Shown here piece after piece: positions 34,640 to 55,554 of a stretch of DNA of 64,000 nt. Each line of letters starts with the position of its first letter. Positions within the stretch are counted from its first letter, which is position 1. The DNA lies in NCBI GenBank assembly GCA_022647575.1, contig JALCKY010000001.1, positions 744,001-808,000 of the forward strand. Direction: 5' to 3'. The DNA is from Lachnospiraceae bacterium (GTDB lineage: Bacteria; Bacillota; Clostridia; Lachnospirales; Lachnospiraceae). The notes below the pieces were generated by a model. It did not search any database, was not told the origin of the DNA, and saw only the letters and a list, made by a program, of their open reading frames with translations. Made by a program: the position numbers and the translations under genes.

Positions 34640-37408
34640 ATGTCGGAGATCAAAAAACTCATCAAAAAAAATCTGATCGTCAATGGCCAGCACATCAGCA
34701 TTCTGGTAGACGGGAATGATACTCTCGCCCACGTCATCCGCAGCCAGCTCGGGCTGACCGGCACCAAGGTGGGCTGCCGGCAGGGACAGTGCGGCATCTG
34801 CAACGTGATTCTGAACGGCAAGGTAACACCATCCTGCATCATGAAAATGAACCGCGTACCCGACGGCTCCGAACTTCTCACGATTGAGGGCATCGGCACG
34901 CCGGAGCATCCGCATCCGCTCCAGCTCGCCTGGTCGAAGCTGGGCGCAGCCCAGTGCGGCTTCTGTACGCCGGGTTTCATCATTTCAGCCTACAGCCTGC
35001 TGCAGAAGAACCCCAATCCTACCCGCGAGGAAGTGCGCGAACAGTTCCGCATGACCCGGAACGCCTGCCGCTGCACCGGCTACAAGCCGAATGTCGACGC
35101 CACGATGGCCGCCGCCGCCGTGATGCGCGGGGACGCCGATATCACAACGCTTTTGCCCGACGCCAAAGAAGGCGAGCATCTCTACGGCTCCAGCTATCCC
35201 CGTCCTTCGGCCATTCCGAAGGCCTGCGGAACGTGGGAATTTTCCGCCGACACGATGGAGAAGATGCCCGGCATGTTCCTCCATCTGGCTCTCGTGCAGG
35301 CAAAGGTTTCGCACGCTAAGATTCTCTCGATCGACACAAGCGAGGCGGAGAAAATGCCCGGCGTCGCACGCGTACTTACCGCGAAGGACGTACAGGGCAC
35401 GAACCGCATCCAAAATATGAACTGCTACTCCTGGGACAAAGGCACCAATGCCGACCGTCCCATCCTCTGCGACGACAAGGTATACATGTACGGCGATGCC
35501 CTCGCCGTCGTGGCAGCGGACTCGAAGGAAGAGGCTGAAGCAGCGGCAGCAAAGGTAAAAGTGGAACTGCAGGAACTCCCGGCCTACATGAGCGCACCCG
35601 CAGCCGCCGCACCGGATGCGAAGGAGATCCACGAAGGCACACCCAATATCTTCTGCGAGCAGGATACCGTAAAGGGCGCTGACCCGAAGGAGCTGTTCAA
35701 GGACCCGGATGTTGTCACGGTGACGGGCGACTACTACACCCAGCGCGTTCCCCATCTTGTGCTCGAACCGGACGTGGGCTATGCGTACTTTGACGAAGAC
35801 GGCCTTCTCACGATTCACTCCAAGTCCGTCGGCATCTATATGACGCGCGACCAGATTGCCGAGGGCCTTGGCCTCGATGCCGAAAAGATCCGCATCGTGC
35901 AGAATAACTGCGGCGCCACCTTCGGCTATAAGCTGGTCGCCACAATCGAGGGTCTGCTCGGCGTCGCCGTCATGGCGACAGGACGGCCCTGCTACCTCGA
36001 GTTCAGCATGGAGCAGCAAATCACCTACACCGGCAAGCGTTCGCCGTTCTTCATGCACCTGGAGCTCGGTGCGAACAAAAAAACCGGCAGGCTCGTCGGT
36101 CTGAACGCCAACTTCCTCATCGACCACGGGGCCTACGCCGAGATTGCGGATTTGCTGCTCACACGCGGCAACCAGTTCATCGGCAGCGGCTACCACATCG
36201 AAAACGTCCGCAACCACGGGGCCATCACCGCGACAAATCACGCCTACGGCGCAGCCTTCCGCGGCTACGGCAGTCCCCAGTCCCTTTTCTCCACTGAGAG
36301 CATCATCGACGAGATGGCGCGGAAGCTGGGCGAGGATCCGTTTGAATTCCGCATGAAGAACCTCTATACATCGGAGAGCACCACGCCCTACGGCGACAAG
36401 CCGGATATCCTGCCCTACAACCAGCTCATGGAAATGATCCGTCCGTACTACGACGATGCAGTAAAGCGGACGAAGGCCAATTCGACCGAGACAAAAAAGC
36501 AGGGCGTCGGACTTTCCCTGGCCTGCTACTGCATCGGCGACGAGAACTGCGACGCGGCCGAAGCTGCGATGGAGCTGCTGCCGGACGGCCGCTTCGCCAC
36601 CTACAGCACCTGGGAGGACCACGGCCAGGGCGCAGATATCGGCATACTTACGGTCACGCAGGAGACACTGGCCAAGAACGGCATCCATGTCCGGCCGGAT
36701 GAAATTGTGATGATTTCCAATGACACGTCCAAATGTCCGAACTCCGGCAGCGCGGCGGGCAGCCGCAGCCAGCTCATCATCGGCAACGCGATTTACGACG
36801 CCGGTGAAAAACTGGCGAAGGCCATGCGGAAGGACGACGGGACGTTCCGCACTTATGATGAAATGAAGGCCGAGTCCATCGACACCTATTACAATGGTTC
36901 TTTCTCAACAGGCCTGTACTGCACTCCGCTCGACCCGCAGACCGGTCTGAGCAAGTACCCTCATATCGCCTTTATGTACGGTGTTTTCATGACCGAGGCT
37001 GAGGTCGACATCACGACCGGCAAGGTCCGTGTCACGAAAGTCCGGGTAGCCGTGGACGCCGGCAAAATCGGCAATAAGCTTGCAGTGGACGGCCAGTACT
37101 ACGGCGGCATCGCTCAGGGCATCGGCATGGCGCTCAGCGAGGACTTCGAGGACATTCACAAGCAGACAACACTCATGAAGTGCGGTTTCCCAACGATCGA
37201 CATGATCCCTGACGATCTTGAAATCATCTATCTGGAAACTCCGCGTAAGCACAGCGTCTTCGGCTCCTCCGGCTGCGGCGAAGTAGTGCTCAGCAGTCCG
37301 CACGCATCCGTAATCAATGCGATTGATGACGCCTGCGGCGCGCGCATCCGCGATCTGCCGGCTTACCCTGAAAAGGTACTGAAAGCACTGCAGGAAAAAC
37401 AGAGATAA
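34640..37408 (+). CDS. Molybdenum-dependent aldehyde oxidoreductase (xanthine oxidase family), single chain, no FAD domain
   Basis: 922 residues. Residues 1-85 are a plant-type [2Fe-2S] domain (Cys46, 51, 54, 66 in CRQGQCGIC...). Residues 86-165 are the second [2Fe-2S] domain (AQCGFCTPGF and NACRCTGY). The rest is the molybdopterin-binding domain. The catalytic Glu is visible near residue 881 in SSGCGEVVLS. The length and the lack of an FAD module match Desulfovibrio gigas-type aldehyde oxidoreductase (about 907 residues) rather than xanthine dehydrogenase. It is convergent with the hydroxyproline-type operon and shares a terminator with it, so oxidation of 2-oxoglutarate semialdehyde is a tempting role. 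Moco synthesis genes are not in the window. Confidence 0.9.
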   Translation: MSEIKKLIKKNLIVNGQHISILVDGNDTLAHVIRSQLGLTGTKVGCRQGQCGICNVILNGKVTPSCIMKMNRVPDGSELLTIEGIGTPEHPHPLQLAWSKLGAAQCGFCTPGFIISAYSLLQKNPNPTREEVREQFRMTRNACRCTGYKPNVDATMAAAAVMRGDADITTLLPDAKEGEHLYGSSYPRPSAIPKACGTWEFSADTMEKMPGMFLHLALVQAKVSHAKILSIDTSEAEKMPGVARVLTAKDVQGTNRIQNMNCYSWDKGTNADRPILCDDKVYMYGDALAVVAADSKEEAEAAAAKVKVELQELPAYMSAPAAAAPDAKEIHEGTPNIFCEQDTVKGADPKELFKDPDVVTVTGDYYTQRVPHLVLEPDVGYAYFDEDGLLTIHSKSVGIYMTRDQIAEGLGLDAEKIRIVQNNCGATFGYKLVATIEGLLGVAVMATGRPCYLEFSMEQQITYTGKRSPFFMHLELGANKKTGRLVGLNANFLIDHGAYAEIADLLLTRGNQFIGSGYHIENVRNHGAITATNHAYGAAFRGYGSPQSLFSTESIIDEMARKLGEDPFEFRMKNLYTSESTTPYGDKPDILPYNQLMEMIRPYYDDAVKRTKANSTETKKQGVGLSLACYCIGDENCDAAEAAMELLPDGRFATYSTWEDHGQGADIGILTVTQETLAKNGIHVRPDEIVMISNDTSKCPNSGSAAGSRSQLIIGNAIYDAGEKLAKAMRKDDGTFRTYDEMKAESIDTYYNGSFSTGLYCTPLDPQTGLSKYPHIAFMYGVFMTEAEVDITTGKVRVTKVRVAVDAGKIGNKLAVDGQYYGGIAQGIGMALSEDFEDIHKQTTLMKCGFPTIDMIPDDLEIIYLETPRKHSVFGSSGCGEVVLSSPHASVINAIDDACGARIRDLPAYPEKVLKALQEKQR

Positions 37409-37420
37409 TAAGTAAAAAAA

Positions 37421-37460
37421 AAATTCCCGGAAACGGCCGATAAACCGTTTCCGGGAATTT
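37421..37460. terminator. Bidirectional terminator between convergent genes
   Basis: A perfect 16-bp stem (37421-37436 with 37445-37460) with an 8-base loop, A-run on the left and T-run on the right. It ends both the plus-strand oxidoreductase gene and the ten-gene minus-strand operon. Confidence 0.9.
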
Positions 37461-37468
37461 TTTATCGC

Positions 37469-38359
37469 TTATTGAATCTCATCCGCGTGCATTTCCGCAT
37501 ACACATAATTTTTTTCCTTATCGGTCAGCTCCATGCGCGGTCTGCGGGAGAAACCGCCATTGTCGGTCTTGCGGTCGACGACGTATTTCATTGCCTGAAC
37601 AGGCTTCGGGAAATTCTCCAACAGATTGAGACCCGGCAGCAGCCTGCGGTAAATCTTCCAGCCTTCGGCCAGATCTTTGCGGCAGTAAACTGCGTCATAC
37701 AGAGCTACACAGTCCTTCGGCGCGACATTTGCAAGCATGCTGATCCAGCCGCACGCTCCCGCTGCAAAGCTCTCATAGGCAAGCGTGTCGCAGCCGCAGA
37801 AGACGCTGATCCGCTCGGGCGCGTCCATTAAAACTTCTGTCACTTTCTGCATGGAACCGCTGGACTCCTTGACAACGGCGGCGTAGGGAAGCTGGAAAAG
37901 CTTCTGGAACGTGTCACGCTCCAGGTTGACGCCGCAGCTGCCGGGGTTATTGTAGAGCATGATGGGGAACTGAGTCTTCTCCATTATATAGCGATAGTTT
38001 TCGACAATCTCATCCTGCGCCGGATGGCAGTACGGCGGAGTCAGAACCATTGCAGCGTCACCGCCGCAGTCTTTGATGTTGCTGACCAGTTCAATCACGT
38101 CGTCGGCCCGCTCACGGGTCGCGCCGACCATCACGCCCACACGTCCCTTGATGTAGGGGACGATTTCGCGAACGTAGGCCTTGTGCTCCTCGAGTGTGAC
38201 GCTCTGATATTCACCAGTCGCGCCTAAAAGGCAGATGCCCTGGACGCCGTTTTCAATCAGCCAGTCCAGATGTTTCTTGGCCTTGTCAAAATCAAAGCTG
38301 CCGTCCTTGTGGAAGGGCGTGATGGCGACCGCGTAAATACCTGCAAATTTTGGATTCAT
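37469..38359 (-). CDS. DapA-family lyase, probable 1-pyrroline-4-hydroxy-2-carboxylate deaminase
   Basis: 296 residues, TIM-barrel class I aldolase fold. The family motif GATGEYQSVTLEEH (about 47-60), the Tyr in MLYNNPGSCG (Tyr136) and the Schiff-base Lys164 in VVKESSGS are present. DapA homologues include dihydrodipicolinate synthase, N-acetylneuraminate lyase and the deaminase of the hydroxyproline pathway. The neighbours (Cys/Cys racemase-epimerase and D-amino-acid dehydrogenase subunits in the same operon) make the deaminase, which yields 2-oxoglutarate semialdehyde and ammonia, the best guess. Last gene of the operon, with a strong terminator after it. Confidence 0.8.
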   Translation of the reverse strand: MNPKFAGIYAVAITPFHKDGSFDFDKAKKHLDWLIENGVQGICLLGATGEYQSVTLEEHKAYVREIVPYIKGRVGVMVGATRERADDVIELVSNIKDCGGDAAMVLTPPYCHPAQDEIVENYRYIMEKTQFPIMLYNNPGSCGVNLERDTFQKLFQLPYAAVVKESSGSMQKVTEVLMDAPERISVFCGCDTLAYESFAAGACGWISMLANVAPKDCVALYDAVYCRKDLAEGWKIYRRLLPGLNLLENFPKPVQAMKYVVDRKTDNGGFSRRPRMELTDKEKNYVYAEMHADEIQ

Positions 38360-38378
38360 GTGTTTGCCTCCATATGAT

Positions 38379-39548
38379 TTATTGTTTTAGAAAACGGTTG
38401 TAACTGACTGGACTCAGATCCATGAACGTGGGACGTCCTGCAATCATATCTGCGATACTCTTGCCCGTGATAGCAGAAAGGCCGATGCCGTCGCCCTCGT
38501 GGCCGGCCGCAATGTAGAAGCCGGGAACAGGCGTATCGGAAACGATAGGCAGATGATCCGGCGTAAAAGGCCTGAGGCCGCTGTAGCCGCGGATGACCTT
38601 GATGTTCCGAATGACCGGGAAGAAGCGGATGGCCCGCTCGGCCAGCGCCTGCATGACTTCAATATCGTTCGAGATGTCCTCGCCCACAAAGCTGCGGGAG
38701 GAGCCGATCAGGAAGTTATTCGAAGCAGTGGGCTCGAAAACGAATGCGACTCCGTTGCGCTCAACACGTTCGGAGACCTTGCGCTTGTAATTGCTGCTGC
38801 CGAACTTCGTCAGCATGTAGCCGAATTCATGTACCTTGCGCCGTGCGACCCGGAAGGTCTGCTCGGATACGAGGATCTGCCCCTGACGGGCCTGGATGGG
38901 AATTTCCAGCCCTACCATGCGGCCGATGACCGGCGACCAGACGCCCGCGCAGTCGACCACGTATTTGGCCGCGACGTCGCACTGCTCGCTGTGGACGAGA
39001 AAACCATTCCCGTCGCGATCTATGCCGGTGACAGGGTTGTGGAACAGCAGCTCTGCGCCCATCTTCTTCGCGCCGAGAGCGTATCCGTAGCACAGGCCGA
39101 TCGGATAGAGTGAGCCGTCGCATGCCGTTTCGAGGCCGCCGTAAAGGTCGTCCGCGAGATAGCGCTCGTCCTGATGGATTTCATACTTGTCCATCATGCG
39201 CATGGGCAGCCCGCAGGCCACCATGTCTTTACAGAATTTCGCGGCGATCTCATATTGTTCCTCGTCTTCGACGATATAGAGGCTGCCGCGCTGATGCCAC
39301 TGAATATCAAAGTCCAGCTCTTTGCTGAGAGGACCGAACATGTCCTGGCTTGCTTTGGCAAATTTGGCGTCGAAACCGGGCATCTTGTCACAGACAAGAA
39401 TGTTGCCGTCGCTCTTGCTGCTGGTACCCTCGGCCATGTCGCCGCGGTCAATCAGTATGACCTTCGCACCGGATTTGGCGTTGAAGTATGCCACGGAAGC
39501 GCCGATGACACCGGAACCGATCACGACTACATCTGCGGATTTAATCAT
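38379..39548 (-). CDS. FAD-dependent D-amino-acid (probable D-hydroxyproline) dehydrogenase, catalytic beta-type subunit
   Basis: 389 residues of the DAO superfamily. The FAD Rossmann motif is VVVIGSGVIGASVAYFNAKSG near the N-terminus, and the C-terminal part has YSGLRPFTPDHLPIVSDTPV with GHEGDGIGLSAITGKSIADM. Such subunits oxidise D-hydroxyproline, sarcosine or proline and pass electrons to partner flavin/Fe-S subunits. Here three such partners lie immediately upstream with overlapping ends. The substrate is inferred from the epimerase and the lyase in the operon. Confidence 0.85.
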   Translation of the reverse strand: MIKSADVVVIGSGVIGASVAYFNAKSGAKVILIDRGDMAEGTSSKSDGNILVCDKMPGFDAKFAKASQDMFGPLSKELDFDIQWHQRGSLYIVEDEEQYEIAAKFCKDMVACGLPMRMMDKYEIHQDERYLADDLYGGLETACDGSLYPIGLCYGYALGAKKMGAELLFHNPVTGIDRDGNGFLVHSEQCDVAAKYVVDCAGVWSPVIGRMVGLEIPIQARQGQILVSEQTFRVARRKVHEFGYMLTKFGSSNYKRKVSERVERNGVAFVFEPTASNNFLIGSSRSFVGEDISNDIEVMQALAERAIRFFPVIRNIKVIRGYSGLRPFTPDHLPIVSDTPVPGFYIAAGHEGDGIGLSAITGKSIADMIAGRPTFMDLSPVSYNRFLKQ

Positions 39549-40377
39549 TGTGCTTCCCTCCTTCTTCGCCGTCCATGAGCTCGCCGAACGTCACCGGACG
39601 AATGGGAGGCCGGGACGTCGCCGGAAGCACATCGCTGGGAGCCTTGCTGAGTTCTTCGTTGATGATCCGGGTCACAAGCCGGCTGCAGGTTTTGCCCTGG
39701 CACAGGCCCATGCCCGCGCGGACGCGGCGCTTGATTTCCGTCACGGAAGTGCCTCCGTATTCCCGCACTGCCTTTCGGATTTCTCCCGCGGTAATTTCCT
39801 CGCAGCGGCAGACCAGCACATCATCATCCATGTACTCGACATGTTCTTCAGGCGTGAATTCGGCATCTTCCGGAATGTTCAGGCGGCGCATTGTGCGTAC
39901 GTCGTCGCAGTATTTTTTGGGAACAGCCATTGTGACGACCGGTGTATGGTCGTTTTTGGCCGTGTTTTTCACACGGACAATCGTACCTTTGCAGATGAAT
40001 TCACCTGCTCTGCTGAGGGCGTCCACCGTATCACCGGGATTCGGCAGCGGCAGATACTCGAACGGAAAACTGACCGTACCCTCAGTCTCACTGTAAGTCT
40101 TGTCAATCACGAAGATTGCAAGGCCCGAGCATGCCGATACGCAGGTGCAGCAGCCGGTACATTTATCTTCATCCACGTGCGGGCAGTTGGTGATGGGCTC
40201 ACCCACCGTGATTGCGTGGAAGGGGCACGCCCCTTCGCATGGGTTGCAGGGAATCTCCTGCACGCACTCCGTTACCGCCACGGGGCCTTTGGCAAACCGT
40301 TCCTCCGAGGGGTAGCCGTTTGCCCGGCGGATTTCCTCCATCGAAGGATAGCCGTTATATAAAATATTATTCTCCAT
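39541..40377 (-). CDS. Ferredoxin/BFD-type Fe-S electron transfer subunit of the D-amino-acid dehydrogenase
   Basis: 278 residues. There are two [4Fe-4S] cysteine clusters (IPCNPCEGACPFHA and CTGCCTCVSAC, about 42-85) and a BFD-like [2Fe-2S] domain near residues 188-240 (VCRCEEITAGEIRKAV, LCQGKTC). In related dehydrogenases the BFD piece is fused to the flavin subunit; here it is on the ferredoxin subunit instead. The gene overlaps both neighbours by a few bases, which supports a fixed complex. Electrons might go to a quinone, ferredoxin or NAD. Confidence 0.82.
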   Translation of the reverse strand: MENNILYNGYPSMEEIRRANGYPSEERFAKGPVAVTECVQEIPCNPCEGACPFHAITVGEPITNCPHVDEDKCTGCCTCVSACSGLAIFVIDKTYSETEGTVSFPFEYLPLPNPGDTVDALSRAGEFICKGTIVRVKNTAKNDHTPVVTMAVPKKYCDDVRTMRRLNIPEDAEFTPEEHVEYMDDDVLVCRCEEITAGEIRKAVREYGGTSVTEIKRRVRAGMGLCQGKTCSRLVTRIINEELSKAPSDVLPATSRPPIRPVTFGELMDGEEGGKHND

Positions 40378-41465
40378 TATCGAACAGCTCCTTTCTGCAT
40401 AATGGCCTCTTTGGCCTTGAGCCGCCGTTCGCCGAACGGACCCTGCCGCAGGGCGACAAGACGTTTCCGAATCTCGTCCTTTGCGCTCTGCGCTTCATCC
40501 TTGCCGAGATAGCCGAGCGATTCTGCGATTGCCGTACCCACAAGACGTCCCTCGTCCATGGCCGTATTGGCCTCCTCCACGCCGGCGGTGTCGCCCGCTA
40601 CGTAGATGCCGTCCAGGTTCGTCTCCATATTGTCGTCGTGCATCGGCATCCAGCCGCCCATGGCGGGAATGAACTCCTGATGTACACCGGCCATCCACTC
40701 AAGCTCCGTCATCGGATGCATGCCGACTGCCATGCAGATGACATCGACGTCGACGCCCATCTCCGTACCCGGCACGACCTTGCCGTCCTTAAATTCACCG
40801 ATCACCGCTCGCTCAACCTTGTCCTCACCTTCAGCTCGGACAATCGTATGGCTGAGGAAGAAGGGTACGCCCGCGCGGCGCAGCTTTGCCGCATGCACGC
40901 CGTAAGCACCAACGTGATCCATACCTTCGACAATACCGACGACCTGCGCACCGGCCTGCATGAGCTGATAGGCTACGATGACGCCCACGTTGCCGGAGCC
41001 GACCATTAGAATCCGCTTGCCGGGCAGCACCCGGTTCACGTTGACCATCGTCTGCGCCGCACCCGCGCCCATGACGCCGGGAAGCGTCCAGCCGGGGAAG
41101 CGCAGCGCGTTCTCACCGCCGCCTGTGCTGATAAGTATTTTCTTGGCCTTGATGACCTCGGTCGCACCGTCGTGCAGCACAGCCAGGGTGTGGTCTTTAA
41201 AGATGCCGTATACCGGGCTGTCCAGCCACACCTCGACACCGCTGTCCTGAGTCTCTTTCAACAGCTTCTTCGCAATATCGATGCCGCGCACGCCGGCATT
41301 GTGTGCTTTCGAGCCGAAGAACTTATGAATCTGCTTAAAAAGCTGACCGCCGGGGCGCTTGTTCTCATCACAGACGAGCACCTTGGCGCCGCGTTTTGCG
41401 GCTTCGATTGCCGCCGACAGCCCTGCCGGACCGCCTCCGATAATGACGACTTCACGTTCAGTCAT
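40377..41465 (-). CDS. FAD/NAD-binding alpha-type subunit of the D-amino-acid dehydrogenase
   Basis: About 362 residues from ATG 41465 (MTEREVVIIGGGPAGLSAA); an upstream ATG at 41486 is possible. Two dinucleotide-binding motifs are present: the first at the N-terminus, the second in RILMVGSGNVGVIVAYQL. The ending GIYVAGDTAGVEEANTAMDE is typical of pyridine nucleotide-disulfide oxidoreductases such as the alpha subunits of sarcosine oxidase or hydroxyproline dehydrogenase. It overlaps the [2Fe-2S] subunit gene upstream by 8 bases and the ferredoxin subunit gene downstream by one base. Confidence 0.87.
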   Translation of the reverse strand: MTEREVVIIGGGPAGLSAAIEAAKRGAKVLVCDENKRPGGQLFKQIHKFFGSKAHNAGVRGIDIAKKLLKETQDSGVEVWLDSPVYGIFKDHTLAVLHDGATEVIKAKKILISTGGGENALRFPGWTLPGVMGAGAAQTMVNVNRVLPGKRILMVGSGNVGVIVAYQLMQAGAQVVGIVEGMDHVGAYGVHAAKLRRAGVPFFLSHTIVRAEGEDKVERAVIGEFKDGKVVPGTEMGVDVDVICMAVGMHPMTELEWMAGVHQEFIPAMGGWMPMHDDNMETNLDGIYVAGDTAGVEEANTAMDEGRLVGTAIAESLGYLGKDEAQSAKDEIRKRLVALRQGPFGERRLKAKEAIMQKGAVR

Positions 41466-41784
41466 GCGTTTCCACCCCCGTTCCATAGCCCTGCTGCGTT
41501 TCGATGACCATGCCGTCTTCGACCGGCGTGATGCATGTGCGAACGTTCGGATTGCCGTCGACCGTCATGACGCAGTCGGTGCACTGGCCGATCCCGCAGT
41601 AAATTCCGCGGGGCTCATGGCGTTTCGCCGTGTAGCGATGGATCCGGATGCCGTTTGCCAGCAGCGCAGCCGCGATCATTTCGCCCTTCTTCGCCGTCAG
41701 CTTCTTTCCGTCCACAGTGATTTCGACAGTCCCATTGTCTTCTGCGGGGCCTAGAATAGGATGATTTACCACTCGCAATTCCAT
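41458..41784 (-). CDS. (2Fe-2S)-binding gamma-type subunit of the D-amino-acid dehydrogenase
   Basis: 108 residues. It has the small Fer2_4 fold seen in heterotrimeric sarcosine oxidase-like and hydroxyproline dehydrogenase complexes. The cysteines lie in GIYCGIGQCTDCVMTVDG and VRTCITPVEDG. AAGGAAGGGTTAAC precedes the ATG at 41784. First of four dehydrogenase subunit genes, directly after the racemase/epimerase gene. Confidence 0.87.
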   Translation of the reverse strand: MELRVVNHPILGPAEDNGTVEITVDGKKLTAKKGEMIAAALLANGIRIHRYTAKRHEPRGIYCGIGQCTDCVMTVDGNPNVRTCITPVEDGMVIETQQGYGTGVETHD

Positions 41785-41826
41785 GTTAACCCTTCCTTTC
41801 TATCATCAAAATAAAAATATTTACAA

Positions 41827-42834
41827 TTATTTAAGTTGAAACCCCATCGGAAACGGATCATCCGGAGCAATCATATAGGTGTTGATGCCCGTGACCCATG
41901 CCCTGCCCGTTACCCGCGGGATGACCGCTGGGATGCCGCAGACTTCGGCGTCGTCCAGGTATTGGCAGGTAAAACGGCTGCCGATGATGCTTTCGTGTAC
42001 AAAGCTCCCGCCTTTTTTCAGCAGTCCCTCCGCCGCGAGCACTGAGCACTTCGCGGATGTGCCGGTTCCGCAGGGAGAGCGGTCGATAGCACCGGGCGGA
42101 ATGACGACCGCATTGCGGATGGGATCGCCGGGATTCGAACCAAGCTGGTAGAACTCTACGTGTGTGACCTGGTTTTCCATCGGCAGTTCGGGGTGCTGCA
42201 CCTTGATCTGGCGGTTAATATCGTCTTTGAGCGAACACCCCGCCGCAACCAGCGCGGAGGCCGTTGCCGGGCAGATCTCCAGACCGACCGATTTGGCCGG
42301 CAGAATGGCGTAAATATTGCCGCCGTAGGCGATATCGAGTTTCAATTCGCCGTATTCGGCAGTGCGGACCTTCGCATCCCTGGCCATGACAAAAGCAGGG
42401 GCATTGATGAAACTGACAGATTTGGCCGTGCTGTCCTCGACTTCGACCTCGAGCCGGACCAGACCCGCGGGGGTATCGAGCGTGATATGCGTGATGGGCT
42501 CGGTCACATTCACAAGGCCGGCTTCAACAAGCGCAGTGGCGACGCCGATGGTATCGTGGCCGCACATCGGCATCCAGTTGCCGACCTCGAAATAGAGAAC
42601 GCCGATATCCGCTTCGGGGTGGCATGGTTCAGTCAGAAGCGTACCGGACATGACGTCATTGCCGCGGGGCTCAAAGCAGAGAAGCTGCCGCAGCCAGTCG
42701 CCCTTCTCCATCATGTAGATCATTTTGTCCTTCATGGTGGCGCCGGGCACTTTGGGAAAGCCGCGCACGACGGTCCTGGTGGGTTCGCCGCCGGTGTGGG
42801 TGTCTATCGTCTGAAAAGTGTGCTTGATGTTCAT
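41827..42834 (-). CDS. Proline racemase / 4-hydroxyproline epimerase family protein
   Basis: 335 residues, the usual length. Both acid/base cysteines of true racemases/epimerases are present: Cys91 in MPMCGHDTIG and Cys255 in DRSPCGTGTSAK. A Thr in the second place would indicate a trans-3-hydroxyproline dehydratase, so that option is excluded. Proline racemase (feeding D-proline reductase) and hydroxyproline 2-epimerase cannot be told apart by the cysteines alone; the absence of prd genes and the presence of the dehydrogenase and lyase genes favour the epimerase. The start overlaps the ATPase gene stop by four bases. Confidence 0.87.
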   Translation of the reverse strand: MNIKHTFQTIDTHTGGEPTRTVVRGFPKVPGATMKDKMIYMMEKGDWLRQLLCFEPRGNDVMSGTLLTEPCHPEADIGVLYFEVGNWMPMCGHDTIGVATALVEAGLVNVTEPITHITLDTPAGLVRLEVEVEDSTAKSVSFINAPAFVMARDAKVRTAEYGELKLDIAYGGNIYAILPAKSVGLEICPATASALVAAGCSLKDDINRQIKVQHPELPMENQVTHVEFYQLGSNPGDPIRNAVVIPPGAIDRSPCGTGTSAKCSVLAAEGLLKKGGSFVHESIIGSRFTCQYLDDAEVCGIPAVIPRVTGRAWVTGINTYMIAPDDPFPMGFQLK

Positions 42835-44841: not shown

Positions 44842-44856
44842 GATATCCATCTCCTC

Positions 44857-46730: not shown

Positions 46731-46783
46731 AGCGAAATTCCCTCTCAGCGTATGCTCCGCCGGCAGAATGGCCTGCACAACCG

Positions 46784-46822
46784 GGATGCCCCCGGACTTC
46801 CGGAAAAAGTTCGGGGGCATCC
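46784..46822. terminator. Strong hairpin between dppA and dppB
   Basis: A 16-bp stem (46784-46799 with 46807-46822, one G-U pair) with a 7-base loop. There is no U-run, so it probably protects or attenuates, allowing more binding protein than permease. Confidence 0.7.
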
Positions 46823-46842: not shown

Positions 46843-48555
46843 TCAATTCATGGTGATCGTGGTGAAGTTCATGTTGGTGCCTACGTAGTAGGGATTGTAA
46901 CCCTGCACGTTGTCGGCGATAAGATAATAGTTATTGGTGGCATCCAGGTTGATGATCGGCAGATCATCGCAGAGGACCTTCTCGGCATTGAACAGGGCCG
47001 TGAAGCGGGCCTTCGGATCGGTCGTGGTCTGAGACTCGGTCATATACTTGTCAAATTCGGCATTGCTGTGCTGTGAATAATTGTAGCCGCCGTCGGTGGA
47101 GAAGAGTTCCAGATAGGCGTTCGGGTCGTCATAGTCAGGTGTCCAGCCGGTGTACATCATTTCAAAGTCCTCACTTGCCTGATTGTCATACAGTACAGCG
47201 TAAGGCAGCGGGTTCAGAGTGATGTCGATGCCGATGTTCTGTTTCCACTGGGCCTGAATGGCCTCAACGATCTTGCGGGTATTGTCGTTGTCAGAGTAGT
47301 TCAGCTTAAAGGTCATCTGGCTGATGTCGGTCACGCCCAGTTCAGTCATGGCCTTCTGCAGATAATCCTTCGCCTGCGTCATATCGCCATCGAGCGGATA
47401 CGGCGTGAAGTCGAATTCATCGCCCCAGTTGCCGGAGTCACCCTGCATAACGGGCAGCACCGCACGGCTGGTCGGTTTGTTCATGTTGTTGCGGCTCAGC
47501 TTAGCAAACGCGTTGCGGTCGATGCCATAGCTCAAAGCTTTGCGGAAATTCTGGTTTTCAAGAGCGGCATTGCCGCATTTGAGATTGATCTGCAGATAAT
47601 CCATGCTGCCGGTGTACCAGGCAGTAGCCTTGTCCTTGTACTGTTCGAAGGAAGCGGCCGGAATGTCCACATAGTCGAGCTGCTGAGTCTCATACATGCT
47701 GATCGGAGTGTTCGCATCCGTGAGAATGGAGACTTCCACTTTGTCGATCTTGATGGCGTCTTTGTTCCAGAACTTGTCGTTTTTAACAAGGGTCAGCTTG
47801 CTGTCGTGTTCCCAGCTTTCGAGCTTGAACGGACCGTTGTAGGCATTCTTGTCTGCTGTAGAAGCAAAGTCCTTGCCGTACTTTTCAACCAGATCCTTGC
47901 GGACCGGGAAGTATGAGGCGCTGGATAACATTGTGGGGAAATAGGCAGCGGGATGGTCGAGCGTGATGACGACGGTCTTGTCGTCGGGAGCGGATACACC
48001 CAGCTGGTCAACTGTCATCTTCCCGGCTTCAACATCCTTGCCGTTTTTCAGGACCTCGCCCATGTATGCACCGCTGGCTGCAGTAGCCGGATCCATAAGG
48101 CGCTGGAGTCCGTAGACGAAATCGCCCGCTTTGACCTGCACGCCGTCGCTCCACATCGCGTCGTCGCGAAGATGGAAGGTATAGGTAAGACCGTCGGAAG
48201 AAACATCATAGTCTGTTGCGACGCCCGGTTCAATTTTGCCGTTGTTGTTGCGCATCAGGCCGTCCATCAGGTTGTAGAGCATGTCGGAGCCTGCCATGGA
48301 GTTGCAGAGTTCAGGGTCGAGTGAAGGCGGTTCAGTAGTCATGTAGATTCGGAAGTTCTTTTCACCTCCGGTGCTGGTAGCGGAGTTTGCCGTGCTGGCC
48401 GCAACCGAAGCGCTGGTGGATGCTGAAGCTGAAGCCGCCGCGCTTGAGGTCGCTGTGCTCTCCTGCTTCTGGTAAGTTCCGCACCCGCCAAGTAGGCTCA
48501 GGGGCAAGAGAACCGCCATCGATGCTGTCAAAAGCCGAATTTTAACGTTTTTCAT
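46843..48555 (-). CDS. dppA: Dipeptide/oligopeptide-binding lipoprotein, DppA/OppA type
   Basis: About 570 residues. Two ATGs stand in tandem (48558 and 48555); the second is 6 bases from GGAGG. The signal peptide ends in LLGGCGT, followed by a Ser/Ala/Thr linker (about 25-55) and then the SBP family 5 fold (FRIYMTTEPPSLDPELCNSM, DDAMWSDGVQVKAGDFVYGL, FRKALSYGIDRNAFAKL). It binds peptides outside the cell. First gene of the ten-gene operon that runs to the DapA-family lyase, linking peptide uptake to imino-acid breakdown. Confidence 0.93.
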   Translation of the reverse strand: MKNVKIRLLTASMAVLLPLSLLGGCGTYQKQESTATSSAAASASASTSASVAASTANSATSTGGEKNFRIYMTTEPPSLDPELCNSMAGSDMLYNLMDGLMRNNNGKIEPGVATDYDVSSDGLTYTFHLRDDAMWSDGVQVKAGDFVYGLQRLMDPATAASGAYMGEVLKNGKDVEAGKMTVDQLGVSAPDDKTVVITLDHPAAYFPTMLSSASYFPVRKDLVEKYGKDFASTADKNAYNGPFKLESWEHDSKLTLVKNDKFWNKDAIKIDKVEVSILTDANTPISMYETQQLDYVDIPAASFEQYKDKATAWYTGSMDYLQINLKCGNAALENQNFRKALSYGIDRNAFAKLSRNNMNKPTSRAVLPVMQGDSGNWGDEFDFTPYPLDGDMTQAKDYLQKAMTELGVTDISQMTFKLNYSDNDNTRKIVEAIQAQWKQNIGIDITLNPLPYAVLYDNQASEDFEMMYTGWTPDYDDPNAYLELFSTDGGYNYSQHSNAEFDKYMTESQTTTDPKARFTALFNAEKVLCDDLPIINLDATNNYYLIADNVQGYNPYYVGTNMNFTTITMN

Positions 48556-48586
48556 CATATTCCTCCTTCTTTTACCTGTCACTATG

Positions 48587-48989: not shown

Positions 48990-50246
48990 TCAAGCCCTGT
49001 CTGCCATAAATCGCTCGATTTCATCAATGGAACGCGGTATTTCACGGGAGAGGTTCTCACATCCGCTCTCAGTAACAAGGCAGTTGTCCTCCACCCGGAA
49101 ACCAATGCCCCACTCCTCCACGTAAATGCCGATGTCCACGCAGAAAACCATGCCCGGGGCGACGGGGCGGGTCATATCCACGGCATCATGTACGTCGAAG
49201 CCCACGTGGTGCGCTCCGCCGTGCCACATATACTTGTTCACGTTCTCGCCGGGCTTCAGCAAGCCCAAAGCTTCCAGCTTCTTTGCACAGTAGGCATGGG
49301 AAACTTTGTCCACGTCGGCCATGGGCATGCCCGGACGGATGGTATGAAACATGTATTCCGACGTCTCGTAGGCACACAGATACAAAGCACGCTGTTTTTC
49401 AGAGAAGACGCCATTGCAGGGCCAGCCCCGGGAGACGTCGTTGCATTCGTTGTCCCAGCATGCGCCGACATCGTTCAGGATCATGTCGCCGTCCTGTACC
49501 TGTCCCTGGTAACTGTAGTAGTGGATGCAGAAGTTGTTTTTGCCGGCGGAAATGATGGAAGGAAATGCCGGAAACAGGACGTTGCGCTCGGTCAGTGCCT
49601 TGTCGAAAAGGGCCTTATACTGGTATTCATACATGCCGGGCTTCGAGCCGCGCATCATTGCCTCGATGCCGGCCTTCGTGATCTTCATAGCGGTTCTCAT
49701 AGCCTCGATCTCACATGGCTTTTTGATGGTGCGCTGGGCTGAGAGCTGAGCGTGGACGTTGGCGATGCGCAGGGCGGGATAGCGGCGGGCTGCTTCTTCG
49801 GCAAAGGCATGGGCTTCGTCCGGTACCTCGTCAGGCATGTGCTTCCACAAATCGAGCGCGAGCGTATGGAAGGCGCCGGATTCCGCTGCACGATGGAACC
49901 GGGCTTCAAAGTCCTTAACGAAGGCGATCTCTGTCATATTTCCTGCCGCACGTGCTTCGTCCTGCTTGATTCTGCGGCCCGTCCAGCGCTCGGCCAAATC
50001 ATCGGGCGGCAGCAGAAAGAGCGTCTCGCGGACATCGCCGGCGCTCTTTTCCGCCAGCAGAATAAAATGGTGCGAGGCGGCAGAACTGAGGCCTGTCAGA
50101 TAGGCGAAGTTGCGATTGCAGAAAAAGGGATAGTAGGCATCCGCAGACTGACGCGGCTCCTGCCCGGCGAAAATAACGAGCAGCGAGCCGTCCTCCAGAG
50201 AATCATAGAGCGTCCGACGGTTTTCCTGATAAAATGATGCGTCCAT
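48990..50246 (-). CDS. M24 family Xaa-Pro aminopeptidase/dipeptidase
   Basis: About 418 residues from ATG 50246 (MDASFYQENRR), which has AGGAGGG before it. Metal-binding residues are present: two Asp in NDVGACWDNECNDVSRGWP, His in GGAHHVGFDVHD and Glu in RVEDNCLVTE. The usual Glu in the EPGxY motif is replaced by Asp (VFCVDIGIYV), a conservative but unusual change. The N-terminal domain is of the aminopeptidase P type. It should cleave peptides with Pro or hydroxyproline in second position after uptake by the Dpp transporter. It is divergent from the XRE-cupin regulator. Confidence 0.87.
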   Translation of the reverse strand: MDASFYQENRRTLYDSLEDGSLLVIFAGQEPRQSADAYYPFFCNRNFAYLTGLSSAASHHFILLAEKSAGDVRETLFLLPPDDLAERWTGRRIKQDEARAAGNMTEIAFVKDFEARFHRAAESGAFHTLALDLWKHMPDEVPDEAHAFAEEAARRYPALRIANVHAQLSAQRTIKKPCEIEAMRTAMKITKAGIEAMMRGSKPGMYEYQYKALFDKALTERNVLFPAFPSIISAGKNNFCIHYYSYQGQVQDGDMILNDVGACWDNECNDVSRGWPCNGVFSEKQRALYLCAYETSEYMFHTIRPGMPMADVDKVSHAYCAKKLEALGLLKPGENVNKYMWHGGAHHVGFDVHDAVDMTRPVAPGMVFCVDIGIYVEEWGIGFRVEDNCLVTESGCENLSREIPRSIDEIERFMADRA

Positions 50247-50315
50247 GGAATTTCCCTCCTGAAAATATATTTCTCCGGAGCTTTGTCCGTTTTCCGAAAA
50301 TTTTATCGGCTTCGA

Positions 50316-50344
50316 TTGACAGCCCCCGGTGGTTTTTGTATGAT
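50316..50344 (+). promoter_or_regulatory. Sigma-A type promoter for the XRE-cupin regulator
   Basis: TTGACA at 50316-50321 and TATGAT at 50339-50344 with a 17-base spacer. The gene starts with GTG at 50391, preceded by TAGGAGTG. Confidence 0.8.
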
Positions 50345-50390
50345 TGATTGAAAGAATTAAATAATTAAATAATAACATAGGAGTGATATC

Positions 50391-50984
50391 GTGAACCACA
50401 ATTCGACAATAGGTGCACAGATCAAGGCGCTGCGCACCGGGAAAAAGTATACGCTCAAGCAGCTCAGCAAAGAGACAGGGCTGTCAGTTGGTTTTCTCTC
50501 GCAGATTGAACGGGGCATTTCCTCAATCGCGATTGACTCACTGGCGAAGATTGCGGAGTGTCTTGACGTGTCGCTGTCAAGCTTTTTCACAGAGAACCAA
50601 CCGAAACCCACGGACCCTGTCGTGCACGCCTTCGACCTCCAGTACACTGCCAACAGCCCGCAGATCGTGCAGGCGATTCTCAGTCACAATAACCTCAAAT
50701 ATGACATGCTGCCCCGCATCTTCCGCCTGATGCCCATAGCCGGATCAGAGAAGTCCCAGCCGGAGATGTACACTCACAGCGGCGAGGAATACATTTATGT
50801 TCTTTCCGGCGTGGTCACCGTATGGCTCGACGGACGCAGTTACACGCTCTACCCCGGCGACAGCATGCAGATCCTGTCAAAGCTGCCCCACAACTGGGTC
50901 AACAACACGAACAAGCTCGCGGAACTTTTGTCCGTCAACTATCCGAATCCTTTCAAAATGGACGCGGAGAAGCTGGTACACTGA
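50391..50984 (+). CDS. XRE-family regulator with C-terminal cupin domain
   Basis: 197 residues, GTG start. The N-terminal HTH reads IGAQIKALRTGKKYTLKQLS and GLSVGFLSQIERGISSIAID. The C-terminal cupin domain (about 110-190) has the PEMYTHSGEEYIYVLSGVVT strand, a possible metal- or ligand-binding His and Glu set, and the closing ending LYPGDSMQILSKLPHNWVN. Such regulators often control amino-acid or osmolyte catabolism. Between two divergent catabolic units, it probably regulates the peptidase and the dpp-epimerase operon. Three 22-bp repeats lie just after its stop. Confidence 0.9.
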   Translation: MNHNSTIGAQIKALRTGKKYTLKQLSKETGLSVGFLSQIERGISSIAIDSLAKIAECLDVSLSSFFTENQPKPTDPVVHAFDLQYTANSPQIVQAILSHNNLKYDMLPRIFRLMPIAGSEKSQPEMYTHSGEEYIYVLSGVVTVWLDGRSYTLYPGDSMQILSKLPHNWVNNTNKLAELLSVNYPNPFKMDAEKLVH

Positions 50985-50989
50985 AAGCT

Positions 50990-51055
50990 GCAGCACAATC
51001 AGCTCATGTCTGCAGCACGTTCAGCTCATGTCTAAAGCACAATCAGCTCATGTGT
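50990..51055. repeat. Three 22-bp tandem repeats overlapping the end of the second peptidase gene
   Basis: Units at 50990-51011, 51012-51033 and 51034-51055 share AGCAC..TCAGCTCATGT. The rightmost unit codes for the last residues (HELIVL and stop) of the minus-strand peptidase, so the other two look like duplicates of the gene end, placed between two convergent genes. Confidence 0.8.
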
Positions 51056-52102
51056 CGTGGAGATCATATTGTCGTAGCCGTCCTCGGTGACGAGAATCTG
51101 GTCCTCGATGCGCACTCCGCCCCAGCCTGGGATATAGATGCCGGGCTCGATCGTGCGAACGTTGCCGGCCATCAGAATGTCGGGACTGACCGCGCTGGAA
51201 TAGGGCAGCTCATGGACGAACAAACCGATGCCGTGGCCGATATTTCCGTAGGTGTACGGTTCGTATTCGGTTCCCGCCACAGCGTGCAGGGAGGCTTTGT
51301 AGATTTCGGGGCAAGGCGTACCTGCCTTCGTAACGTCAAGAGAATCCTGAATCATGCGCTGCGTCAGTTCATAGACCTCCCGCTGTTTGGGGGTCGGCCT
51401 GCCGACAATCACGGTGCGGGTCATGTCGGAGAGATAGCCATGGTACTGGCAGCCGAAATCCATGAGTACGAAATCGCCGTATTCCACGGCTTTCTCGGAC
51501 GGAATGCCATGCAGCAGTGAGGTGCGCGCACCGGAAATGAGGATGTTGCCGTAAGGCATGGTATCCGAGCCTTCCTGTACCATGAAAAGAGACAGCTTGG
51601 CCGCCAGTTCCTTCTCCGTAACGCCGATGCGGATCTCCTTCAGAATGCGCTCGAAGGCGCGGCAGGAGATATCGCACGCGGCACGCAGACAGGCGATCTC
51701 GGCCGGACTTTTAATGATTCGCATCTGCTCGATGATCTGGGACGTGGGCACCAGCTCGCCCTGGAAAGCAGCGCGGAAGCCCTCGTAGTCGCGGAAGTTC
51801 ATCATTTCATCCTCAAAGCCGAGCCGGCGGACGTTCTCCTTGGCTGCCAGCTCCGCAACGATTGTCCCCAGCGGCGTGCCGGGCTTAGCGCGGACATTCA
51901 CAAGCCGGTAGTCCGGGCACTCCAGCGCGGCCTGTTCGGTATAGCGCGGATCCGTCAGAAAATAGAGCGCACCGCGCGTCACGAAAAGGCTGCTGTCGTC
52001 GCCCGTGTAACCGCTCAGATACCGTACGTTTACCTTTTTCCTCACCAGAAAGCCATCCAGGCTTTCTTTTTTCATGTATTCCAGCAGTTTCTCCTCATTC
52101 AT
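51032..52102 (-). CDS. M24 family Xaa-Pro dipeptidase/aminopeptidase (second copy)
   Basis: 356 residues. An N-terminal creatinase-like domain (about 1-125) is followed by the pita-bread metalloprotease domain with a complete set of ligands: LMDFGCQYHGYLSDMTRTV (two Asp), GNIGHGIGLFVHE (His), RTIEPGIYIP (Glu) and VRIEDQILVTEDG (Glu). This copy keeps the Glu that the other M24 protein has lost. It overlaps the amidohydrolase gene by 8 bases and belongs to the operon that starts with the arabinofuranosidase gene. Confidence 0.93.
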   Translation of the reverse strand: MNEEKLLEYMKKESLDGFLVRKKVNVRYLSGYTGDDSSLFVTRGALYFLTDPRYTEQAALECPDYRLVNVRAKPGTPLGTIVAELAAKENVRRLGFEDEMMNFRDYEGFRAAFQGELVPTSQIIEQMRIIKSPAEIACLRAACDISCRAFERILKEIRIGVTEKELAAKLSLFMVQEGSDTMPYGNILISGARTSLLHGIPSEKAVEYGDFVLMDFGCQYHGYLSDMTRTVIVGRPTPKQREVYELTQRMIQDSLDVTKAGTPCPEIYKASLHAVAGTEYEPYTYGNIGHGIGLFVHELPYSSAVSPDILMAGNVRTIEPGIYIPGWGGVRIEDQILVTEDGYDNMISTTHELIVL

Positions 52103-53312
52103 TTTTATTTTCTCCTTTCGATACGATTTTTCCCTGCATCATAACCTGCTCCACCCTGTCAAGCGCCTCAATATTCCTGGACGCATCGCCGCGCACGACC
52201 AAAAGATCTGCAGCAAGACCGGGACGCAGCGTACCCGTGACATTTTCCAGGCCCAGCACCCGCGCGGGATTTCCGGTCGCGGTCTGGATAGCCTGCAGAG
52301 GCGTGATGCCGTACTGCACCATATAGCCAAGTTCCTGGTGGATGGGCAGGGGAGGCGCGCCCAGAAGCACCATGTCACTGCCTGCAAGGACGGTCACGCC
52401 GGTGTCATAGAGTTCTTTGAAGTGATCGCGATAAGCTGCGGCAGCCGGGCCGAAAAACGCTTTGTCCCGGATGGCACGGCGTGCGACGGAGTTGCTGTCC
52501 GCGCCGCCGCCCTCGCGCTCGAGCCGGCAGCAGTATTCATAGAGATAGGTATAGGCTGTGATGGTGGGCGTCCATGCCTGGCCATTTTCCGCCATCTGCC
52601 GGGCCTGCGGAACTGTCAGGAAGGTGCCGTGTTCGATCGTGTCGAAACCCGCGTCGATGCACATCTGGATTGCAGGGGGCAGACCTGCGTGGACAGCGGT
52701 TTTTATGCGGCGGCGATGACACTCGTCCACGGCAGCATCCAGTTCCTCCTGCGTGAACTCGGGAATGTCGGCGCGATTGCTCGTCAGCAGCTTCACCCAG
52801 TCGGCTCCGTCCCGCACCTGGCGGCGGATAGCCGCACGAATCGCCCAGGGACCGTCCGCCTGTTCAATGCCGTCAGTCCAGCCGTGGCCGCCGCTCATGC
52901 AGATGCCGGCGTCGGCATGCAGGATGCGGGGCGCGGGAACAAAGTTCTCTTCTGACGCTTCCCGCAGCGCGCGGCAGAGGCCGTGGGGTGAACTGAGGTC
53001 CCGGACGGTCGTGATGCCAAGCGTGAGAGCCAGCTGCGCCTGCTTCGCGGCATACAGGGCGATGCGGAAATCGTTGTACGACGCGCAGTCCGGCTGACTG
53101 TAATAATAGCCGAGATGGACGTGCATGTCGAAAAGACCTGGCAGAATGGTGGCATCGCCAAAGTCCTCTGCCTGTTCGCCGGGATATTGACGGCGCAGAT
53201 TCTCCGCCGTATCCACCGCCGCGAGATTGCCTGCCTTGTCCGTGAGGACGCCGGCTTTTTGCAGGCACGTCCTGCCGTCCCCCAAAATCACATGATCCGC
53301 CAAAAGCAGCAT
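52095..53312 (-). CDS. Amidohydrolase, probably a metal-dependent Xaa-Pro dipeptidase
   Basis: 405 residues with the amidohydrolase superfamily fold. Metal-ligand motifs are LPGLFDMHVHLGYY (HxH), the Lys/His segment IKTAVHAGLPPAIQ, DTIEHGTFLTVPQ (His) and TVLAGSDMVLLGAPP (Asp). Members of this group (for example the Sgx9260 type) cleave Xaa-Pro dipeptides, and others act on imidazolonepropionate. The neighbouring M24 genes support the dipeptidase reading. GGGAG before ATG 53312 overlaps the end of the arabinofuranosidase gene. Confidence 0.8.
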   Translation of the reverse strand: MLLLADHVILGDGRTCLQKAGVLTDKAGNLAAVDTAENLRRQYPGEQAEDFGDATILPGLFDMHVHLGYYYSQPDCASYNDFRIALYAAKQAQLALTLGITTVRDLSSPHGLCRALREASEENFVPAPRILHADAGICMSGGHGWTDGIEQADGPWAIRAAIRRQVRDGADWVKLLTSNRADIPEFTQEELDAAVDECHRRRIKTAVHAGLPPAIQMCIDAGFDTIEHGTFLTVPQARQMAENGQAWTPTITAYTYLYEYCCRLEREGGGADSNSVARRAIRDKAFFGPAAAAYRDHFKELYDTGVTVLAGSDMVLLGAPPLPIHQELGYMVQYGITPLQAIQTATGNPARVLGLENVTGTLRPGLAADLLVVRGDASRNIEALDRVEQVMMQGKIVSKGENKNE

Positions 53313-53327
53313 CTTATATTCTCCCTT

Positions 53328-55554
53328 CTATGGCCGCGCCAGATAGACCTGGTACGGTTCATCTTTGATCATATACAGAGGCATCAGCTGCGCACCCGCT
53401 GCCCCCAGACGAAAATACGGCCCGTCTCCCGTCTGCTCAAGAGATGAGGCCAGGGAAAGCGGCTTCTTCTCAGGGCTGACTGCCGCCAGAACCCAGGGAC
53501 CCCAGCAGACGGAGGCCAGTTCCGGCGCGTCCTGAGGAGACTCGAGGTGAACTTTACAGGGAAAACGGCACACCAAAATGTCTCCGTCCGACAGAAGTCC
53601 CGCCGCGAAATAACTGTCCGCCTCCTGCAAAACAGCGGGTTTTCCGTTCAGGGAAAAAAACGGCTTCTCCGGACAGCCAAGCGGGACGGCGAACGTGCAG
53701 ACGCACGGTCCCTGCTCCTGACAGACGCAGGGAAGAAACGATTCCGTCCCGCTCCTCACGCACCGTCTGATACAATACGATATTCTTTTCTTTCCACCGG
53801 ATATGAGAGTTGATGAACAGATTGACCGCGAGCGCATCGCCGAACCTGGCATATGCGCAGTCCGCATACTTGAACGCACTCTCGAGGCCCGTGCCGTGGC
53901 AGCAGGTATTTTCGTCATCACCGCTGTAAAGCTTCCGGAAACCGGGCGCGAGGGGCAGAAAATAGGTCGTGCCGCCGTGGTCGTTCGGTTCAGCGGCAGC
54001 GAGAATGTGGTTATAGAGCGTACGCTCGAAGTATTCCATAAGGACGGACTCCGGCTCGTAGCGATACAGTTCGCCTGTCAGCTTGAGCATGTTGTACGAT
54101 GCACAGGATTCCGCTGTCTGATCGCTCAGAAGACGGCCGATCAGCCCCGGCTGGTGGAACATCTCCCCCTCGCCTGTGCCGCCGACGGCATAGACATGAG
54201 AGTTTGTGACGATATCCCAGAAATGCGAGGCGATTTGGTAATAACGCTCTTCTCCGCACACGGCGTACATGCGCAGGGCGCCGATTGCCTGCGGGATGTG
54301 CTGGTTAGCGTGCAGGCCCGTCAGCGCGTCGAGGCCGAGAGACATAGGATAGAACAGCTTGTCGTTATCCAGCCTGCGCGCCGCGCGCAGATACCGCCGG
54401 TCTCCGGTCAGCTCACACAGCCGGGCCAGGGATTCTCCGAGGCCGCCGAATTCGCCGGCAATATAAGTACTCCACATGGCGGAGAGCTGTTCGTGCGTCA
54501 GTCCCTCCAGCCGACGGCAGACCCAGCCGCCCAAACTAACGGCCGTTTGCAGCGCCGTCTCCGACTGAAAAGCCCTGCTGCAGTCGAGCAGACCCGCCAG
54601 CAGCTTATGCAGCGTGTAGTAGGGAGCCCAGATGGCGGGGTATGGTGTCAGATTCTCGAGTTCGTCGAACGGTTCCTCGGGAAAACCGCCGAGATAGCCG
54701 GACGGCGCCTGACATTCCTGCAGGCCGCCCAGCAGAGTTACCGCCTTTTCCCGGATTTTCACCTCTCCCGTCGCTTCCCAGGCGAGGGCCAGCGCAGAGA
54801 GGCAGTGTCCTGTTGTGTGTCCGCGCAGCTTGGAATCCGGAGCATCCCAGCCCTCCATGGGCTGTGCCCCCCGCGTATCGAGGCCGGCAGTCACGCGGAA
54901 ATTCCAAAGCAGCCGGTCGACGTCCAGTGTGAGCAGATGCCTCAGCCCCCGACACTGCGCGTCCCAGAAAGGTCCGCCCTCATCCAGAACAGACATGGGG
55001 GAGAGAAACGGCTCAGCCCAGATTTTCCGCGGTGCTGCGGGCATCGTCCGCTGAACAGTAATTTCTGCGGTGACCGGCGTCATAGTGTCTTTGAGAACGC
55101 CGGAAGCACGTTTTTGTCCGCATTCTGCATACATCCGCTCCGCGCCGTCGTCCCAGATGACCGGCACGGCAATGAGCTCTCCGTTTTCCGCCTGTGCAAC
55201 GGCAGCGGAGGGAAGAAAGAACGTCTCAACCGGGGTATAGCTGAGACGGTCACAGGACGGACGGAACCAAGGCGAACGGGAATCTTCTCCCTCTAAAATA
55301 TGGACAGTGAACGAGCGCTCCGCCGTTTGTTCTCCGTATTGCAGCCTGGCCTGCAGCGTCACATCCCGGCTGCCGCGCCCGTAGGCCGGACGGACAACGC
55401 GTCCGTCGGGCCGCAGAAAGAGGGGATTGTCCGACGTCCAGGCAATCTCGGAACCCTGTTTGCCGCGCTGCGGCAGAGAGAGATCGAACGAGACTGTGTT
55501 AAGGTTGCCGAGATACAGCGCCTCTGCATCCTCACGCGCGATGTTCCGCTCCAT
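53328..55554 (-). pseudogene. GH127/GH146 beta-L-arabinofuranosidase gene with a frameshift in a T7 run (53654-53660)
   Basis: The start at 55554 (MERNIAREDAEAL) has GGAGG at good distance. The N-terminal part (about 1-100) resembles an atrophied bacterial Ig domain; the (alpha/alpha)6 barrel follows, then a beta domain. The family signature QTAESCASYNMLKLTGELY and the pair NTCCHGTGLE give the metal-binding Glu and Cys residues and the nucleophile Cys. The frame breaks after RPAWLSGEAVFF in a run of seven As (plus strand); six would restore SLNGKPAVLQ through to the stop at 53328, about 740 residues. No signal peptide, so a cytosolic enzyme. Family members remove beta-L-arabinofuranose, including from hydroxyproline-linked chains. 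First gene of an operon with two peptidases. Confidence 0.85.

Follow-up and report, generated by a model that had tools for sequence, protein, structure and literature searches.

Gene content of the locus

We analyzed a 64,000-nt window from the genome of a Lachnospiraceae bacterium (GCA_022647575.1, 3.03 Mb, 94% complete; contig JALCKY010000001.1, forward strand, 744001-808000). Positions 34640 to 55554 of the window hold predicted genes for hydroxyproline (Hyp) breakdown, a peptide importer of the ATP-binding cassette (ABC) type and Xaa-Pro peptidases, together with a putative beta-L-arabinofuranosidase related to glycoside hydrolase family GH146. An earlier note, made from the sequence alone, had interpreted this block as a utilization locus for Hyp-rich, extensin-type glycopeptides, and our analysis partly supports that interpretation. 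Pfam and NCBIfam scans of the window proteins recovered every gene that it had named, with good scores; the block also holds an XRE-cupin regulator that it had overlooked (Table 1).

Judged from gene spacing, the minus strand probably holds three transcription units. Unit A (55554 to 51032) consists of the glycosidase, the amidohydrolase 15 bp further on and an M24 prolidase that overlaps the amidohydrolase by 8 bp. Unit B (50246 to 48990) is the gene for aminopeptidase P, for which a start at 50246 is likelier than one at 50399; an 11-pair terminator-like hairpin lies behind it. Unit C (48558 to 37469) runs from the OppA-B-C-D-F importer through the epimerase, the 2Fe-2S, Pyr_redox, Fer4/BFD and DAO parts of a dehydrogenase to a DapA-family lyase; no gap or overlap between its genes exceeds 42 bp, and the unit ends at a 20-pair hairpin. 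A gene for an aldehyde oxidoreductase converges on unit C from the opposite strand, past this hairpin. Across the window, the numbers of promoter-like sites (14 versus 10.9 in shuffles) and terminators (24 versus 18.3) were not above chance, and tRNA and Rfam scans gave no matches.

Table 1. Features of the locus, in window coordinates
Feature	Position	Strand	Remarks
GH146-like beta-L-arabinofuranosidase, N-terminal aBig_2 domain	53328..55554	-	PF07944; frame lost at T7 run
Amidohydrolase, Xaa-Pro dipeptidase-like	52095..53312	-	NF051886: 203 bits, cut-off 500
M24 prolidase (PepQ-like)	51032..52102	-	
XRE-cupin regulator, divergent from aminopeptidase P	50391..50984	+	
M24 aminopeptidase P	48990..50246	-	
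OppA-like substrate-binding lipoprotein	46843..48558	-	
OppB-like permease	45801..46820	-	
OppC-like permease	44857..45798	-	
OppD-like ATPase	43816..44850	-	
OppF-like ATPase	42831..43826	-	
4-hydroxyproline 2-epimerase (HypE), Pro_racemase family	41827..42834	-	S63, C91, H225, I245, C255
Dehydrogenase part: 2Fe-2S protein	41458..41784	-	
Dehydrogenase part: Pyr_redox flavoprotein	40377..41486	-	
Dehydrogenase part: Fer4 + BFD-like 2Fe-2S protein	39541..40377	-	
Dehydrogenase part: DAO flavoprotein (catalytic)	38379..39548	-	
DapA-family lyase	37469..38359	-	
20-pair terminator-like hairpin, between lyase and aldehyde oxidoreductase	37418..37463		
Molybdopterin-dependent aldehyde oxidoreductase, system membership doubtful	34640..37408	+	1354 bits, cut-off 1100

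The epimerase has the residues of a hydroxyproline epimerase

Proline racemases are described as having Phe at sites 1 and 5, and HypE enzymes as having Ser or Val at site 1, His at site 4 and no Phe at site 5 (PMC4364671). The window epimerase has Ser, His and Ile at sites 1, 4 and 5, respectively, which is the pattern of HypE and not that of a proline racemase, and it retains both catalytic cysteines (C91 and C255). These residues argue against a proline-only epimerase, which the earlier note had named as fatal to its own proposal. Among 34 homologues compared (one duplicate row was dropped, and the P_oralis2 row, which fell on a neighbouring gene, was set aside), 15 carry S/H, 18 carry F/L/F and one carries neither combination. 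Four of 36 other members of the genus possess a homologue (42-43% identity), and all four are of the F/L/F type. Since residue swaps at the discriminating sites mostly reduce activity (PMC4364671), we regard these residues as a mark of the family and not as proof of the substrate. In Paenibacillus, a second gene of the proline racemase family follows HypE (L049 8194-9216; also L098-L101, L103 and L108); both catalytic cysteines are absent from its product at the aligned places.

Dehydrogenase, lyase and the last step

Five other genomes (CE91-St56, Drancourtella, Sellimonas, Faecalicatena and Bariatricus) have the epimerase, the four dehydrogenase parts and the lyase arranged as in the window, with identities of 64-82%. 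With the residues of the epimerase, this conserved order supports the Hyp pathway that the earlier note had proposed. The lyase scores below the cut-off of the curated DapA model (194.3 of 206.15 bits). It also has a Ser in place of an Arg that is present in 10 of 12 sequences not belonging to Hyp clusters, and which we take to be the substrate-binding residue of DapA; by score and by this position it does not qualify as a dihydrodipicolinate synthase. It keeps the Schiff-base lysine (K164) and lies beside HypE and the putative D-Hyp dehydrogenase, as is characteristic of DapA-family deaminases of the Hyp type. From this context, a sugar-acid aldolase is unlikely. We also considered the four-part dehydrogenase as a marker of Hyp breakdown and rejected it, as it adjoins proline-racemase-type epimerases in two loci (L050 and L056). 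That pairing hints at an oxidative D-proline route.

The lyase is followed by an aldehyde dehydrogenase in four of the five genomes and by an Fe-alcohol dehydrogenase in CE91-St56. The earlier note had counted the aldehyde oxidoreductase among the parts of the locus. We rejected it as a member of the pathway, as no match to it was found in the related loci searched; its gene lies on the opposite strand, past the hairpin. Within the genus, two of 24 members gave a match at E ≤ 1e-100, with 31-32% identity. Its content of G and C at third codon positions (GC3; 0.77) resembles that of the block, with which it was possibly gained jointly; nothing links the enzyme to Hyp. The aldehyde dehydrogenases encoded elsewhere in this genome were also rejected as candidates: none stands out, their identity to the enzymes of Sellimonas and Paenibacillus pabuli being 28-39%. 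The best of them scores as AldA-type (NF007497), and two matches are split across frames (G000:C1:865545-866944 and G000:C5:152566-153940).

The glycosidase is nearest to GH146

The nearest characterized relatives of the glycosidase belong to GH146, and its nearest solved relatives are BT0349 and Bll3HypBA1. HypBA1 (GH127) is missing from the six solved chains matched at E ≤ 0.001, and it aligns with the window enzyme at 15-17% identity with a lower Z than the GH146 relatives. Thus, of the GH127/GH146 arabinofuranosidase in the earlier note, the family (PF07944, GH146) holds and the analogy to HypBA1 and GH127 does not. Four residues (E482, C484, C551 and C552) are invariant in a four-row GH146 alignment, as befits the zinc site of the GH146/GH127 clan; presumably they form its Cys3-Glu site. 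No signal peptide was seen in the glycosidase. Its N-terminal domain (model md2cf80bb2bfa, residues 1-91) has a counterpart in one domain of AbnA, an extracellular arabinanase (29% identity, 1.2 Å).

The annotated frame stops at 53554, and a conserved-looking C-terminus, read by eye and compared with the ends of relatives, continues in a different frame as far as 53328, which leaves 15 bp to the ATG of the amidohydrolase. The glycosidase is therefore probably the first gene of an operon that also contains the amidohydrolase and one M24 prolidase, though it is broken as assembled.

GH146 recurs beside hydroxyproline and peptidase genes

A profile scan of named genomes with the four-row alignment yielded 567 relatives, of which the best 80 loci were kept; both flanks were nearly full in 51 of these and cut short in 29. 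The flanks contain M24 peptidases in 26 loci, members of the epimerase family in 10, dehydrogenase parts in 10, DapA-family genes in seven and aldehyde dehydrogenases in nine. HypE residues are present in nine of the 10 epimerase loci (six Paenibacillus, Neobacillus niacini, CE91-St56 and Sellimonas caecigallum); the epimerase of the tenth, L158, is of the proline racemase type without them. A HypE-type cluster thus flanks GH146 in 9/80 loci, in varying gene orders. Given 263 M24 genes in 191.6 Mb (the 40 genomes of these loci), about 2.1 of the 80 loci would be expected to have an M24 peptidase, versus 26 observed (binomial P 2e-21, not corrected for relatedness), and in 16 loci the peptidase lies within 1.5 kb of GH146. 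Opp genes were rejected as a marker: they were counted in 37/80 loci, but their ATPases match any ABC transporter. In a quick GH146 tree, the neighbour labels required 13 changes versus 26.6 in shuffles; in this tree L158 was mislabelled as Hyp, and L140 was set aside because the length of its branch indicates translation in the wrong frame.

Gene order varies between these genomes. The P. pabuli locus (L049/L088, on the same contig as L108) is a co-directional series of genes for a two-component system, a sugar-type ABC importer, prolidase and DAO, then two members of the epimerase family, lyase and aldehyde dehydrogenase, and finally redox proteins, a laminin-G protein and GH146. CE91-St56 likewise keeps a single direction for GH146, its two-component system and sugar-type importer, HypE, the dehydrogenase and the lyase; aminopeptidase P diverges from these. 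Sellimonas has GH146, PepQ and OppABCDF, then HypE, dehydrogenase, lyase and aldehyde dehydrogenase; in Bariatricus and a Lachnospiraceae metagenome-assembled genome, PepQ and Opp genes accompany GH146, and HypE is found on a different contig. Since importers of the peptide type and of the sugar type occur with one set of enzymes, the substrate may combine peptide and sugar, as a glycosylated Hyp compound would. As the partnership of GH146 with Hyp genes recurs in other lineages, among both soil and gut bacteria, it is, by this synteny comparison, more than chance, and the joining of Hyp genes with an arabinofuranosidase-like enzyme and prolidases that the earlier note had pointed out is not peculiar to the window. 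The laminin-G/F5-F8 protein of P. pabuli (L049 1272-3941), encoded between the redox genes and GH146, has a sub-threshold matrixin match and may be a secreted protease that attacks glycoproteins of the wall.

Origin and borders of the block

The window GH146 is absent from 36 other genus members at E ≤ 1e-20. GC3 is 0.66-0.77 for the genes from 32135 to 55554 and 0.35-0.64 for twelve tested genes outside, and the block was likely gained horizontally. A cystine-type amino-acid ABC transporter (32135-34368) shares the high GC3 and may have arrived with it. At the other border (55767-58588) lie a C39-like peptidase gene (GC3 0.54) and an IS1634 transposase (56867-58588).

A model for the use of arabinosylated hydroxyproline peptides

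These observations provide the basis for a model in which the Opp-type importer would take up short Hyp peptides derived from plant cell-wall glycoproteins of the extensin type, some with arabinose on the Hyp hydroxyl. GH146 would remove the last Hyp-linked beta-L-arabinofuranose (Araf) in the cytosol, and aminopeptidase P, the M24 prolidase and the amidohydrolase would free Hyp. The epimerase would then form cis-4-hydroxy-D-proline (c4Hyp) for oxidation by the four-part flavoprotein, the lyase would produce alpha-ketoglutarate semialdehyde (KGSA) and an aldehyde-handling enzyme would finish the pathway. That the locus breaks down Hyp is very probable from its genes. For a cytosolic utilization locus for arabinosylated Hyp peptides, with Hyp-linked arabinose as a substrate, we estimate a probability of about 0.65.

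Several observations weigh against this model. The glycosidase frame is lost as assembled at a seven-T run (53654-53660), so that its function in this strain is unsure, and other GH146 enzymes are described as cleaving other beta-arabinofuranosides (PMC10850190). Eight of 19 genomes searched hold both GH146 and an S/H-type epimerase, and in five of the eight these are far apart or on other contigs; they lie within 10 kb in two (CE91-St56 and Sellimonas) and about 30 kb apart in one (Bacillus sp. SA1-12). The nearest tree neighbours of the window GH146 (four loci; SH-aLRT 92, long branch) adjoin aminopeptidase P, and in one of them that was annotated further (L116) a histidine operon follows, with no Hyp genes in the stretch. 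The window cluster has no aldehyde dehydrogenase, the place after the lyase being empty on the same strand, and the aldehyde oxidoreductase had no match in the 80 GH146 loci or in 14 related stretches. Finally, no match to an L-arabinose isomerase (AraA) was found in this 94% complete genome, which leaves released arabinose without a standard route here.

Part of this evidence would also suit a locus for unglycosylated Pro/Hyp peptides from collagen, gelatin or plant protein, with GH146 as a neighbour that has another job. In Drancourtella, PepQ, Opp, HypE, dehydrogenase and lyase genes are contiguous with GH146 on another contig, and the flanks of 71/80 related GH146 loci (29/80 with flanks cut short) have no HypE-type cluster. 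We nevertheless consider such a locus unlikely, as GH146 joins HypE clusters in varying order in Paenibacillus, Neobacillus, CE91-St56 and Sellimonas, and M24 peptidases beside it far exceed their base rate. It is more improbable still that GH146 serves arabinan or arabinogalactan oligosaccharides and is linked to peptide genes through a common plant diet only. BT0349 and Bll3HypBA1 are indeed described as acting on arabinan- or arabinogalactan-protein-type beta-arabinofuranosides (PMC10850190), but the scanned genes of the block include no other glycosidase, GH146 shares its probable operon with the amidohydrolase and prolidase, and the genome lacks an AraA match. A proline pathway of proline racemase and D-proline dehydrogenase would agree with the best NCBIfam model of the epimerase (proline racemase, 362 of 556 bits, under the cut-off), with its nearest solved chain, also a proline racemase, and with the dehydrogenase pairings in L050 and L056. 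The S/H/I residues at the three discriminating sites, compared with F/L/F in 18/34 homologues, and the DapA-family lyase, expected for a 4-hydroxy imine (PMC4113996), make this pathway highly implausible.

Relation to known systems

Clusters for trans-4-hydroxy-L-proline (t4Hyp) are described with a 4-hydroxyproline epimerase (4HypE), a c4Hyp oxidase, a deaminase of the dihydrodipicolinate synthase (DHDPS) family and a KGSA dehydrogenase (PMC4113996, from which words beginning with 'glycos' are absent). The window likewise has epimerase, DAO-family oxidation and DapA-family lyase adjacent, but it adds GH146, two M24 peptidases, the amidohydrolase and the Opp importer, and, unlike clusters with a KGSA dehydrogenase, it has no gene of the aldehyde dehydrogenase family in the cluster. 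Two GH146 members, Bll4HypBA1 of Bifidobacterium longum and XeHypBA1 of Xanthomonas, are presented as enzymes for Araf-beta1-Hyp (PMC10850190); the window enzyme shares their family, as judged through its nearest solved relatives, and their clusters, as reported there, are without Hyp breakdown genes, unlike the window. The B. longum enzymes HypBA1, HypBA2 and HypAA also take arabinose off Hyp-rich glycoproteins (PMC10850190, PMC7263609), but this system, as described, combines GH127 and GH121, is directed at the sugar and apparently leaves Hyp unused. A DAO catalytic part with redox partners in tandem is common to the window, the heteromeric D-hydroxyproline dehydrogenase of three subunits and the four-part L-proline dehydrogenase of Thermococcus (PMC4575208, PMC4364671); unlike the three-subunit enzyme, the putative dehydrogenase of the window is encoded by four genes. 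The glycyl radical Hyp dehydratase HypD of gut anaerobes also serves anaerobic Hyp use, by different chemistry (PMC7077986). Use of extensin sugar by GH127 has been proposed (PMC4454575). In a search of open PMC full text, with subscription papers outside its scope and papers judged by their titles, abstracts and passages, none was found that joins GH127 or GH146 with Hyp breakdown. The locus is thus apparently a recurring combination of known enzymes that is undescribed in the open literature searched.

Implications

As the genome gave no match to an L-arabinose isomerase, this strain may be after the amino acid and not the sugar. Extending this to a conserved, presumably cytosolic GH146 clade of Bacillota, we suggest, tentatively and at somewhat less than even odds, that its members are dedicated Hyp-O-arabinosidases of an amino-acid-driven glycopeptide pathway, in which peptide- or sugar-type ABC importers would bring in intact arabinosylated Hyp compounds and the sugar would be cut to free the imino acid, the extensin backbone and not arabinose being the nutrient. 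In the plant wall, extensins and other Hyp-rich glycoproteins form a pool of protein that is resistant. Arabinose-stripping enzymes for them are known, as is Hyp breakdown, and the two are unjoined in the literature searched. The gene set is a candidate means for gut and soil bacteria to feed on the peptide backbone. It also points to Araf-beta1-Hyp as a possible natural substrate of a GH146 clade and of many of the prolidases encoded beside GH146.
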